In this document: one piece after another, positions 22,958 through 53,110 of the stretch
How the letters are laid out: each line of letters begins with the position of its first letter
Numbering within the stretch: the stretch's first letter is position 1
Assembly (NCBI GenBank): GCA_937883785.1
Contig: CALGDE010000132.1
Location: forward strand, 1 to 64,000
Direction: 5' to 3'
From: an uncultured cyanobacterium
Lineage (GTDB): Bacteria > Cyanobacteriota > Cyanobacteriia > CACIAM-69d
DNA length: 64,000 bases
The notes under the pieces: generated by a model
The model's database searches: none
Seen by the model: the letters and a program-made list of their open reading frames with translations, nothing else
Told to the model about the DNA's origin: nothing
Program-made: the position numbers and the translations under genes

Positions 22958-23112
22958 CAGGGCGTGTCATCAATTAAGTACCCAGAAGCCTCATACCGTG
23001 GGGAGTGTGCTCTTTTAAGTTAAAAAACGTTAGGGTCTGTAAACCTTGCCGCCATTGGACTTGATATTTAAAATTTGAGATTTAGGATTTGACATTTAAC
23101 TGAGCACAGCCC
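22958..23112 (+). repeat. Dispersed MITE-like element, copy A (diverged)
   Basis: It starts AGGGCGTGTCATCAATTAAG, close to copies at 43549, 46647, 52001 and (inverted) 44748, and keeps the internal CAGAAGCCTCA and GGGGAGTGTGCTCTTTT segments. The stem AGGGCGTGT (22959-22967) can pair with GTGTGCTCT (23005-23013) only with several G-U pairs. The right end is degraded; GCACAGCCCTT near 23112 may be its remnant. It lies about 35 bp after the purS stop. Confidence 0.7.
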
Positions 23113-23119
23113 TTCGTCT

Positions 23120-43548: not shown

Positions 43549-43692
43549 TGGGGCGTGCTATCAATCAAGCACCAGAAGCCTCACTTGATGAGGAGTACGC
43601 GCCTTTTTGAAGCAAAAGTCAAGGCAAAAAGTGCTAGGGGGCTGGACCCCTAACAGCTAAAGGCTTTGCCCCTTAAATGATGACAGCCTTAG
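43549..43692 (+). repeat. Dispersed MITE-like element, copy B
   Basis: GGGGCGTGCTATCAATCAAGCACCAGAAGCCTCA at the left and AAATGATGACAGCCTTAG at the right match copies D and E. It is about 12 bp longer because of an internal GTCAAGGCAAAAA duplication-like stretch. The terminal stem is weakened here. It lies between the exosortase gene and its partner gene. Confidence 0.8.
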
Positions 43693-44747: not shown

Positions 44748-44880
44748 CTAAGGTCTGTGACCAATCTAATTCCTGAGTCAAAAGCTGTAAGGGGTTCAGC
44801 TCCCAGCATTTTTTACTTTGAAAGGGTGTGTACTCCCCATTGCACAAGGCTTTAAGGGTTTAATTGATGACACGCCCTAA
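44748..44880 (-). repeat. Dispersed MITE-like element, copy C (inverted)
   Basis: Read on the minus strand it begins TTAGGGCGTGTCATCAATTAA and runs through GGGGAGTACACACCCTTTC and GGGAGCTGAACCCCTTACAGC to CCTTAG. The stem AGGGTGTGT (44823-44831) pairs with ACACGCCCT (44870-44878) with one G-U pair. It is opposite in orientation to copies B and D, which flank it. Confidence 0.82.
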
Positions 44881-44948: not shown

Positions 44949-46649
44949 GTGTCAATGAGTCAGCCACTGGTTAATTTTGCGAAGTTTGCACCGCGTAAAT
45001 TTTGGCGATCGCGATTCCTGACGTTGCAATTAGCCACTTTGGCAGCCGTGCTTGGCGCATTCAGCGGCACTTCAGCAGGTGTTGCGTCCGCCAGAATTGG
45101 CTCGTTGTCAGAACAAGAGGCGTCAGAATCCCAAGCAATCAACCCCTCTGCTCAGCTGAGAGAAGAACCCCAGCAGGGCTCGGAGAAAGACTCGGAGCCG
45201 ATTTTTCCTGATATTCCTCGTCAACCGGCAGACGATTCCCAGTTTCCCCAGGCTGAGCCCTTGGAGGAAGAAGCTCCATCTTTGGACACGGCTCCTGAGA
45301 ATTCCCCCGAAGCGTCCGACAATACAGTTCCTCCTCCTGACAGCTCGTCAGAGCGATCGCCCCAACCGCCACCGGCCGCTAAACAGCCCAAGCCTGACTC
45401 TCCTTCCCCTGAAGTTGTCGGTGAAGAAGGCGATCGCGATTTAGAAGAAACCCCTGACGCTGCCCCGAATACCACCACTCCTAGGCGCTTACCCCCTCTA
45501 TTGCCAAGGCGGGACAGCCCCACTGCTCGACCGGACCCACTTTTTCCGCTGGATCCTGGAGCAGAGGTTCCCGGTGATCGTTTTGATCGCGACCCCAATG
45601 AACTGGGCGGAGACGACCCTCTGCCGAATGTGCCGCCGGCCTTATTGGAACCAGTAGACCCTTGGCGAGCCTATCGACTATCGCCTCTGGATAGCGTCGT
45701 GGTGCAAGTTTTTGGCTATCCCGACTTATCTTTCAACACCAACGTGGACCAGGGGGGACGAATTTTGGTGCCCCTGGTGGGCTTTTTAAAGGTGGAAGGA
45801 CTCACCCTGGAGGAGCTTCAGGGGGCCCTAGAGAGCGCCTACAACGAATACGTGATTGACCCGGAGGTGTTGGTTACCTTGGGCAGTCAGGTGAACCCCG
45901 ATATCGTTGTGTCTGGCGAAGTAGTACGCCCTGGCTTTTACCGCGTCGGCTCCTTTGAAACGGTGGTGCAGGCGCTGATTTCAGCGGGTGGCGTGAAAGA
46001 TAGCGCCGACTTGCGGGCGATCGCCCTGCGTCGTCGGTTACCCGATGGCACCTTGCTGGAGCAGGAGCTGAACCTATTGGAATTATTAGCGGAAGGTTTG
46101 CCGGAGCCACGATTTTTCTTACAGGATGGCGACGTGGTGTTTGTGCCTCGGCGAGAGGTGGTCAACGACCCCACGTACAACTTTGCCTTGGCCACATTAA
46201 ATAACCTGGGACAGCCCACCATTCGAGTGCGTTTGTTGGCTTACGTGGGTGAAGGCGGCTTGCGCACCGTTACCTTACCCACAGGCAGCTCTTTTATTGA
46301 CGTGCTAGAAGGGCTACCCATCTCCCAAATCAACTTGCGTAAGGTGGCCCTAATTCGCTTTGAGGCGGAGCAGGGAACGGTGGTTACCCAGGAACTGGAC
46401 GGAAAAGCTGCCATCCTTGGCGACCTAACTCAAAATCCCCAGCTTCGGGACAACGACGTGATTGTGGTTAATCGCAACTTGATCACCAAACTTACGGTGT
46501 TCTTTAACCGATTTACTCAACCCTTCAGGGACGTTCTGGGCTTCCTGCTATTTTTCCGCGAGTTAGATAACGCTGCTGAAGAGCTATTTGGACCGGAGGG
46601 AACCTTTAACGGCGGGTCTGAAAATGACAACAACAATAATGATAATTAG
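44949..46649 (+). CDS. Polysaccharide export protein (Wza/OPX type, SLBB domains)
   Basis: A 566-residue exported protein. After a signal-like helix (about residues 24-48) comes a long low-complexity Pro/Glu/Ser-rich region (50-230), then a polysaccharide-export domain (YRLSPLDSVVVQVFGYPDLSF to DPEVLVTL, about 238-318), a first SLBB (VVSGEVVRPGFYRVGSFETVVQAL) and a second SLBB-like region (about 425-490). The C-terminus is Asn/Asp-rich. The expected role is exopolysaccharide passage across the outer membrane, fitting its exosortase neighbours. GTG at 44949 or ATG at 44955 start. Its TAG stop is the first triplet of repeat copy D. Confidence 0.87.
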   Translation: MSMSQPLVNFAKFAPRKFWRSRFLTLQLATLAAVLGAFSGTSAGVASARIGSLSEQEASESQAINPSAQLREEPQQGSEKDSEPIFPDIPRQPADDSQFPQAEPLEEEAPSLDTAPENSPEASDNTVPPPDSSSERSPQPPPAAKQPKPDSPSPEVVGEEGDRDLEETPDAAPNTTTPRRLPPLLPRRDSPTARPDPLFPLDPGAEVPGDRFDRDPNELGGDDPLPNVPPALLEPVDPWRAYRLSPLDSVVVQVFGYPDLSFNTNVDQGGRILVPLVGFLKVEGLTLEELQGALESAYNEYVIDPEVLVTLGSQVNPDIVVSGEVVRPGFYRVGSFETVVQALISAGGVKDSADLRAIALRRRLPDGTLLEQELNLLELLAEGLPEPRFFLQDGDVVFVPRREVVNDPTYNFALATLNNLGQPTIRVRLLAYVGEGGLRTVTLPTGSSFIDVLEGLPISQINLRKVALIRFEAEQGTVVTQELDGKAAILGDLTQNPQLRDNDVIVVNRNLITKLTVFFNRFTQPFRDVLGFLLFFRELDNAAEELFGPEGTFNGGSENDNNNNDN

Positions 46650-46776
46650 GGCATGCCATCAATTGAGCGCCAGAAGTTTTACGCCGTCGAAAAGCCATGC
46701 CCTTTCGCAACAAAAACGCTGGGGGCTGCAACCTTCGTGGCTTTTGGCTTTGAGATTTAAACGATGACCGCCCCTA
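46647..46776 (+). repeat. Dispersed MITE-like element, copy D, starting on a stop codon
   Basis: TAGGGCATGCCATCAATTGAG at the left and GATGACCGCCCCTA at the right. The TAG is the stop codon of the export gene. The stem AGGGCATG (46648-46655) pairs with CATGCCCT (46696-46703) followed by TTC; copy E has CGTGT/ACACG in place of CATG/CATG, so both arms changed together. Removing the element at its TA ends would leave TAG as the stop. Confidence 0.85.
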
Positions 46777-50809: not shown

Positions 50810-52003
50810 ATGCGCGTAATCCTGATGACTGGTAAAGGTGGCGTTGGCAAAACGTCCGTAGCAGCAGCCACTGGACTGCGCTGTGCCGAGCTAGGGTACA
50901 AAACCCTAGTGCTCAGCACGGACCCGGCTCACTCCCTTGCCGACAGCTTCGATATGGACCTGGGGCACGACCCTCGTCTAGTGCGAGACAACCTGTGGGG
51001 CGCTGAACTAGACGCGCTGCAAGAGCTGGAAGGCAACTGGGGAGCAGTAAAGCGCTATATCACCCAAGTGCTCCAGGCCCGCGGTTTGGAAGGGGTCCAG
51101 GCGGAAGAGTTAGCAATTTTGCCAGGCATGGATGAAATCTTCGGCTTAGTGCGCATGAAGCGCCACTACGACGAAAAAGAATTTGAGGTGCTGATTATTG
51201 ACTCGGCACCAACGGGAACGGCGCTGCGCCTACTGAGCTTGCCGGAGGTGGGCGGCTGGTATATGCGCCGCTTTTACAAGCCGTTCCAAAATATGTCCGT
51301 AGCATTGCGCCCCATCGTGGAGCCCATTTTCCGCCCCCTCGCCGGTTTTTCCCTGCCCGACCGAGAAGTGATGGACGCGCCCTATGAGTTTTACGAGCAA
51401 ATCGAAGCTTTGGAAAAGGTGCTGACGGACAATACCCAAACGTCGGTGCGCCTGGTGATGAATCCAGAGAAGATGGTGATTAAAGAGTCCTTGCGGGCCC
51501 ATGCCTACCTCAGCTTGTATAACGTTTCGACGGATATGGTGGTGGCAAACCGGATTATTCCTGAGTCCGTTGACGACGAGTTTTTCAAGCGCTGGAAAGA
51601 ACAGCAACAGAAATATAAGGAAGAAATTCATGAGAATTTCCATCCTTTGCCCGTTAAGGAGGTGCCCCTTTATTCGGAAGAAATGTGCGGATTAGAGGCG
51701 CTGGATCGTTTGAAAAATACTTTGTTTGAAGAAGGCGAAGATCCGACGAAGGTGTACCACGAGGAAACCACGTTGCGGGTGGAGCAGCTGGGGAATTCGG
51801 CGTACAGTTTGGAAATGTATTTGCCGGGCATTCCTAAGGATCAGGTGGATCTAAGCAAGTCTGGTGACGAGCTGAATGTGCGCATTGGTAACCACCGTCG
51901 CAACTTGGTGCTGCCCCAGGCTTTGGCGGCGATGCAGCCAGTGGGAGCAAAGATGGAAGAGGACTTCCTAAAAATTAAGTTTGCGGAACCGGCAAAGGTT
52001 TAG
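50810..52003 (+). CDS. ArsA/GET3-family ATPase with C-terminal HSP20-like domain
   Basis: A 397-residue P-loop ATPase with the deviant Walker [10 protein letters not shown] (8-16), switch I region [13 protein letters not shown] and [12 protein letters not shown]. The last 85 residues form an HSP20-like beta domain ending [13 protein letters not shown] and EEDFLKIKF. Relatives either energise arsenite export or insert tail-anchored proteins; with no ars genes nearby and the HSP20-like tail, a chaperone-like role is more likely, as inference. It is divergent from the MacB-type ATPase. Its TAG stop is the first triplet of repeat copy E. Confidence 0.9.
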
Positions 52004-52132
52004 GGCGTGTCATCCATTTAGCACCAGAAGCCTTATGTTGTGGAGAGTACACGCCCTTTTGAAGTGAAAAGTGCTAGGGGCTGAAATCCTCACCGCTACA
52101 GGATTTGGCGTTTAAATAATGACAGCCCCTAG
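52001..52132 (+). repeat. Dispersed MITE-like element, copy E (best preserved), with terminator hairpins
   Basis: Starts TAGGGCGTGTCAT and ends ATGACAGCCCCTA (near-inverse termini, TA at each edge). The left half folds AGGGCGTGT (52002-52010) with ACACGCCCT (52049-52057), followed by TTT. The right half folds CTAGGGGCTG (52074-52083) with CAGCCCCTAG (52123-52132) around a perfect inner stem AAATCCT/AGGATTT (52084-52090, 52100-52106). It fills the whole gap between the ArsA stop (52001-52003) and the convergent LprI-gene stop (52136-52138), so it may end both transcripts. Confidence 0.88.
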
Positions 52133-52135
52133 TGC

Positions 52136-53110
52136 CTAAAGCACCGAGTTTAAATGTTCGCCAAGCTGGATGTAGCGTTGGTTAGTTTGCCACTGGCGGC
52201 AAGCGGTCAGCGCTGCGTTTCCACCGCCAATTGCTTCAAACCCGCAGGCTTGATTACGGTAAATTTGCCAAGCTTGCTCTGCGTTGCGCAAAAGCCGCGA
52301 TCGCAATTCTCGATATTCCCCGTTACGAAACCCTGCCAGTCGTGTGCGCACCTGTTGGTAGCGTCGTTGCCGTTGGGGATCAGAAATGTGATCGCCCGAT
52401 TGAATCTCTGGCGAACCCAACCCGTCCCGATATCGCTGAAGCAACTGGGTGCGATCGCGGGTGAGCCGCGCTTTGCAGCCGCTACTGAGTAACGGTTGGA
52501 GGGAGCCCCCCTCGGCAGAGCTATCGTAAAATCGACATTCGCGATCGCGATAGGCAGCCCACGCAACTTGGGAATTACGCAACAGCTTTTGGCGCTGCTC
52601 CGATAGATTGGGAAACAGCTCTCGGTAGGTGTTGTTAAGGCGCTGATTCTCCCGAGTCAAGGTTTGAAAAGCACAGCGGTTTAGCTCCTGCTGCGTTTGC
52701 GGATCGTCGCAGCTTAGTTGGGACTGGGCGAGGTTTTGCTTTGTTAAAGTTTGGCGAAACTGGGGCGATCGCGGCGTGGTGGGGCGTAAGTCGTTGCTAT
52801 TTCGGCGGGGGCTAATTTGACGACCCTGACGTTGATTGCGGCGCTGGGCACCAGTGGGCGGTCGGTTGGTTTGGCGCGATCGCGGCTCAAAGCGTCGGGA
52901 ATTGCGCGGTCGGCGATTTGGCGAGCTAACGGGAGAAAGGGTGGGGCGCGTTGTTGACCGGCGCAAAATTTGGCGACGTTGTGGTGCGCGAGAGGAGGAT
53001 TCTATCGGAATTTCAGTGGCAGCAAACGCAGAAACACCTGCACAAACGCCAGCAGTTCCTATCGTTAAAAGGCTAAAAGTTGCGATCGCAAAAGTCCTTT
53101 TATTCACCAC
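52136..53110 (-). CDS. Exported protein with two LprI-like domains
   Basis: A 324-residue protein with a signal peptide (about 1-31, VSAFAATE), an Arg/Pro/Ser/Asn-rich basic linker (35-125) and two units resembling the lysozyme-inhibitor LprI N-terminal domain (DUF1311). The first has CDDPQTQQELNRC, LLRNSQVAWAAYRDRECRFY and a later Cys; the second (about 245-324) has LRSRLLRNAEQAWQIYRNQACGFE and TACRQW. LprI of Mycobacterium inhibits lysozyme; function here is unknown. It is convergent with the ArsA gene across repeat copy E. Confidence 0.75.
   Translation of the reverse strand: MVNKRTFAIATFSLLTIGTAGVCAGVSAFAATEIPIESSSRAPQRRQILRRSTTRPTLSPVSSPNRRPRNSRRFEPRSRQTNRPPTGAQRRNQRQGRQISPRRNSNDLRPTTPRSPQFRQTLTKQNLAQSQLSCDDPQTQQELNRCAFQTLTRENQRLNNTYRELFPNLSEQRQKLLRNSQVAWAAYRDRECRFYDSSAEGGSLQPLLSSGCKARLTRDRTQLLQRYRDGLGSPEIQSGDHISDPQRQRRYQQVRTRLAGFRNGEYRELRSRLLRNAEQAWQIYRNQACGFEAIGGGNAALTACRQWQTNQRYIQLGEHLNSVL

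Follow-up and report, generated by a model that had tools for sequence, protein, structure and literature searches.

The BOX repeats of Streptococcus pneumoniae are MITE-like and encode the stop codon of 36 of the 58 coding sequences that they overlap, with no good evidence of truncation reported in the part of PMC3049150 available to us. In the same part of that paper, the RUP element of S. pneumoniae, of about 107 bp, is proposed to be mobilised by IS630-Spn1 and has its highest density at 50–150 bp from genes. IS630 itself prefers TA within CTAG, according to the reference list of PMC2170065, and ISY100, a cyanobacterial element of the IS630 family, duplicates TA (PMC2170065). In Anabaena sp. 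90, 15 of 147 MITEs lie inside broken ORFs (PMC3542288).

The DNA analysed here (the window) is a 64,000-nucleotide stretch of the genome of an uncultured cyanobacterium, in which two genes end exactly where a repeat copy begins. The polysaccharide export gene (Poly_export/SLBB by Pfam; 44949–46649, plus strand) ends with a TAG at 46647–46649, assigned from the ORF list, the coding score and Pfam, which is also the first three bases of copy D (46647–46776, plus strand). This copy is 130 bp long, has both TA edges, reads TAGGGCATGCCA...GACCGCCCCTA and matches the covariance model of the family with 118 bits. Likewise, the arsA gene (ArsA ATPase; Pfam ArsA_ATPase and ArsA_HSP20; 50810–52003, plus strand) ends with a TAG at 52001–52003, assigned from the ORF list and coding score, which is the first three bases of copy E (52001–52131, plus strand; 131 bp, both TA edges, 146 bits). 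The initial annotation had placed both stops in the first bases of these copies, at 46647 and 52001, and these coordinates were confirmed. It had also claimed that deleting each element between its TA edges restores TAG, and the joined flanks bear this out, giving AATAAT-TAG-CCAG across copy D and AAGGTT-TAG-TGCC across copy E. The stop of the convergent gene beyond copy E lies at 52136–52138, 4 bases past the right edge of the element, so that the intergenic space is occupied almost entirely by copy E.

The other copies in the window do not overlap stop codons. They are copy C (44748–44879, minus strand) and copy B (43549–43692, plus strand, left edge decayed to TGGGG), both matched by the covariance model, and copy A (22958–23115, end approximate, plus strand), a decayed copy of the same or a sister subfamily detected by blastn and by the left-end pattern.

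The element family and its target site

Copies D and E are members of a non-autonomous MITE family of about 130 bp with TA edges, restricted to the genus. In an alignment of the copies, the consensus measures about 131 bp (TAGGGCGTGTCATCAATTGAGCACC...AAATGATGACAGCCCCTA); its terminal inverted repeats are imperfect, and its two ends carry TAGGGCGTGTCATCAATT and TAGGGGCTGTCATCATTT. Both ends read TAGGG inward and have stops in each of the three inward frames. Either half of the element is able to form a hairpin of its own, and the element showed no coding capacity. With the covariance model, at least 150 full-length copies were found in the window's genome (4.84 Mb), where the left-end pattern gave 267 matches versus 7 for the reversed control. 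The sister species G001 (MAG SRR3401492_bin.38), the only other genome of the genus found, contained at least 150 matches, of which a few are short or lie at the edge of a contig, and its best copies scored as high as those of the window's genome. Four other genomes of the family contained no copies. In two distant cyanobacteria there were 4 and 1 weaker matches, whose ends agree but whose interiors differ. The elements of distant cyanobacteria at loci L243, L246 and L249 of G017 and L244 of G020 share the length, the ends (TAGGG..TGTCATCAATTA) and the two-part build of the family and have other interiors, which suggests a wider class of elements mobilised by related transposases. No Rfam family matched the element up to E=1, and the best hit in a plasmid collection, a 22-bp end match in Polaromonas, was not significant (E=0.3).

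Genome G000 also holds a second subfamily of MITEs, about 130 bp long and bounded by TAGGGCGTGTGCTCAGTTA / TAGGGGCTGTGCTCAGTTA (C11:7014, C36:9437, C50:1068, C88:19905 and C115:52201; L387–L392). Its pattern gave 79 matches at up to 3 mismatches and 0 in the reversed control, some of these matches belonging to the first subfamily. In addition, an outward ATG is present at each end of the element (GATGACA...CCCCTA), and next to six G001 copies (C304:1207, C84:4543, C435:2521, C295:292, C568:1501 and C374:638) the neighbouring gene was called from this ATG, 13 nt inside the element.

The target was derived from copies with intact TA edges that do not lie at stops. Around them the flanks read YTAR in 61 of 63 cases in the window's genome and in 68 of 69 in the sister, with CTAG accounting for 26 of the 63 and 51 of the 69, respectively. 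TA is found at both edges and is the only sequence duplicated. The left TA is followed by G both where the right flank has G and where it has A, and in the 20 clear sister cases a T in the left flank pairs with C on the right in 19 and with T in 1. Since the edges are uncorrelated, duplication of four bases (YTAR) or of three (TAG) was ruled out. The 4-bp YTAR duplication that mobilisation by an IS5-group element would leave was thus not found, the third base on the left (G/A) being independent of the right flank. The initial annotation had an element beginning with TAGGG insert into TA; this stood as regards TA, while the target was refined to YTAR with CTAG preferred, and not any TA. At C162:32353–32614 of G000 (L005/L014), two copies lie head to tail with one TAG edge in common, an arrangement that would result if one copy had inserted into the CTAG edge of the other.

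Of the features of the IS630-Tc1-mariner group, both the TA-only duplication and the IS630-like preference for CTAG were found. Since the target preference and the duplication are those of IS630 and ISY100, an IS630-type transposase acting in trans is the likely mover, judging by target and duplication only. If this class is right, the autonomous parent would be an IS630-type transposase flanked by TAGGGCGTGTCATC / TAGGGGCTGTCATC ends. An autonomous insertion sequence with these ends was not found in the approximately one quarter of the genome searched, nor around the IS630 or DDE_Tnp_1 hits, and IS630-type transposase fragments were present in the sequence searched. An IS630-type insertion sequence at C158:898–1973 of G000 (L151), with HTH_Tnp_IS630 and DDE_3 in two frames and a run of A between them, carries different ends (TAGTCATTCCCCAGG..) and sits within a MITE copy, at a TTTAAA site; it is therefore not the parent. 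Near the DDE_Tnp_1 hits, a single MITE-like end at C142:25351 had no matching second end, and a 1043-bp pair at C111, considered as one element, proved to be two separate copies.

Gene stops at element edges in two genomes

Overlap was counted for the 150 best copies by model score in the window's genome and for the 101 sister copies with flanks. Gene ends were assigned by a home-made dicodon-based caller; it was trained on the retrieved sequence, which was centred on the copies. In the window's genome, an inward-reading gene faces 135 of the 300 element ends. The stop of a gene fell exactly on the element edge in 24 of the 150 best copies (14 at the left end and 10 at the right), and no stops were found at offsets −6 to −1 or +1 to +130. 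In the sister, used as an independent test, exact overlap was found in 21 of 101 copies (8 left, 13 right); here two ends lay at −6, one at −8 and one inside the element. Over both genomes, the TAG frame accounted for all 45 overlaps, and the other two frames together for 1 stop. The two ends were used about equally (22 left and 23 right) because both read TAGGG inward; thus the TAGGG that had been noted at the start of the element holds for both ends, and orientation is irrelevant. Restriction to the TAG frame with equal use of the ends fits landing in pre-existing stops and argues against truncation.

Element-free orthologues were then compared, as the initial annotation had proposed, for the original stop. 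The sister arsA (98% identical protein) ends GTT TAA GGCTTAAAGTGTGGAG with no element, while the joined flanks of copy E read GTT TAG TGCCTAAAGCACCGAG. The stop is at the same codon and the downstream DNA is alignable, so that the sister locus (L161) is an empty site. A sister homologue was found for 18 of the 24 overlap genes, and in 10 of these 18 the stop (TAA, TAG or TGA) lies at the identical codon without the element. Besides copy E, the downstream DNA also matches at C164:7703, C149:33694 and C133:50411, which makes these flank-to-flank empty sites. For the gene ending at copy D, the relatives in G002 and G003, which lie outside the genus, lack the element and have ..AAT TAG as their end. 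Together with the 45 of 45 overlaps in the TAG frame, these orthologues uphold the claim that the element inserts into the TA of an existing stop and keeps TAG.

The frequency of overlap was compared with several expectations, the target-context weights being taken from the non-stop copies themselves. Stops accounted for 22–23% of the copies with intact edges (P ~2e-4 in each genome), versus an expected 4.4–5.0% by TA availability and 8.5–10.2% by target context within intergenic DNA. Relative to the context-matched intergenic expectation, 18 of 81 copies were seen versus 6.9 (P=1.4e-4) in one genome and 21 of 90 versus 9.1 (P=2e-4) in the other, an enrichment of about 2 to 3 fold over all intergenic target sites. 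The rate is, however, not uniform over intergenic DNA. Per context-weighted site, pooled over both genomes, it reached 2.83 for stops; on the 3′ side of genes it was 2.22 up to 60 nt, 1.18 from 60 to 150 nt and 0.41 beyond 150 nt, and on the 5′ side, up to 60 nt, it was 0.98. The nearest matched class for stops is that of sites up to 60 nt 3′ of genes. Against matched YTAR sites of this class, no significant excess was found in either genome (P=0.18 and 0.31) or in the pooled data (39 of 81 at stops, 42% expected, P=0.16), the rate at stops being 1.2 to 1.4 fold that of the nearby 3′ sites, which is not significant. The overlap thus exceeds chance when random TA sites or context-matched intergenic sites are the reference, as had been predicted, but not when the reference is the matched 3′ sites. 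Coding DNA contains about two thirds of the weighted target sites, yet the called genes of the window's genome were free of copies.

Explanation of the overlaps

The overlap, its frame, the target, the TA duplication and the empty sites are observed, and they are very probably explained by YTAR targeting combined with tolerance of this non-autonomous MITE near the 3′ ends of genes. A transposase supplied from elsewhere would insert the element at a TA within YTAR, CTAG being the best target, and would duplicate TA only. Since both TAA and TAG are TAR, a stop of either kind preceded by C or T would form such a target, and since both ends read TAGGG inward, an insertion in either orientation would put a TAG where the old stop was and would not alter the protein. 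Insertions within coding sequence would be removed by selection, a filter whose role we infer from the pattern of surviving copies. Copies at stops and just downstream of genes would survive at similar, elevated rates, and exact overlaps would follow. The proposal that insertions into stops are harmless is supported by the lack of copies inside called genes in the window's genome.

The further proposal that stop codons are especially favoured was not supported, given rates of 2.83 at stops and 2.22 at near 3′ sites (pooled P=0.16). Active favouring of stops, whether by the transposase or by selection for a hairpin serving as 3′ terminator or mRNA stabiliser, would account for the excess over the context-matched intergenic expectation, and each half of the element can indeed form a hairpin, copy E folding better than its shuffles (z −3.1). 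However, copy D folds no better than shuffled sequence (z −0.2), terminator-like patterns in the region are within the shuffle range (14 versus 10.8, sd 3.2), only 15 of the overlaps lie between convergent genes, with 28 in tandem arrangement and 2 at contig edges, and the matched 3′ sites leave no significant excess to explain, so that this reading is considered improbable. Termination or transcript stabilisation by the hairpin is possible but unsupported. A stronger proposal, that selection has shaped the element's ends to do no harm where genes end, through TAG edges, three-frame stops and a hairpin behind the stop, and that copies are retained above the neutral rate as replacement 3′ ends, is regarded as quite improbable.

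Truncation, in which the element lands near the 3′ end of the coding DNA and its TAG becomes a new, earlier stop, is within the capacity of an element with stops in all three inward frames at both ends, and two overlap genes (C68:28377 and C61:1587) are in fact about 8 codons shorter than their sister orthologues, which may reflect truncation or drift of the tail. As a general account it is very improbable, since truncation would hit all three frames, whereas 45 stops were in the TAG frame and 1 in the others, and since in the sister 10 of 18 orthologues, free of the element, end at the very same codon. Nor do the overlaps seem to arise from ORF calling. Any open frame running into the element does meet a stop inside it, but spurious frames would end equally in the other two frames, where none was found here and one in the sister; moreover, coding scores are high for most overlap genes, and a sister homologue exists for 18 of 24. 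The probability left to such an artefact is negligible.

Comparison with known elements

YTAR targeting with tolerance at gene 3′ ends makes landing in a stop codon a tidy but ordinary case. It gives a replicated measure of how a target preference and 3′-end tolerance let a mobile element supply stop codons, in about one copy in six, and it implies for annotators that a stop codon may belong to a repeat without the gene being truncated. A genus-restricted family is also added to the known cyanobacterial MITEs. Like Nezha, a cyanobacterial MITE cited in the available part of PMC10969869 and likened here by description only, and like the MITEs of Anabaena sp. 90, the present family is small, non-coding, bounded by inverted repeats and present in many copies. 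In Anabaena sp. 90 some MITEs lie in broken ORFs, whereas no called gene of the window's genome contains a copy. MITEPsy1 of Pseudomonas syringae, possibly IS5-related (PMC3189936), is likewise a short MITE found at CTAG or YTAA, but it has different ends and duplicates 4 nt, whereas the present family duplicates TA only. IS630 and ISY100, of the IS630-Tc1-mariner group, also duplicate their TA target but encode their own transposase. RUP is similar by description, being non-autonomous, linked to IS630 by its ends and high in copy number, in another host and under another name; the present family reaches its highest density at gene 3′ ends and in the 60 nt next to them, unlike RUP, for which 50–150 bp is given in the available part of PMC3049150.

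The closest precedent for the behaviour is BOX, since both families supply the stops of neighbouring genes, although BOX has another sequence and a modular build. What is new is the MITE family of this genus, the supply of stops being precedented in the BOX data of PMC3049150, as far as its available part goes. To that precedent the present data add the exact landing within stop codons, its origin in the TA/YTAR target site, and the matched-site null, none of which is described for BOX in the same part of that paper.
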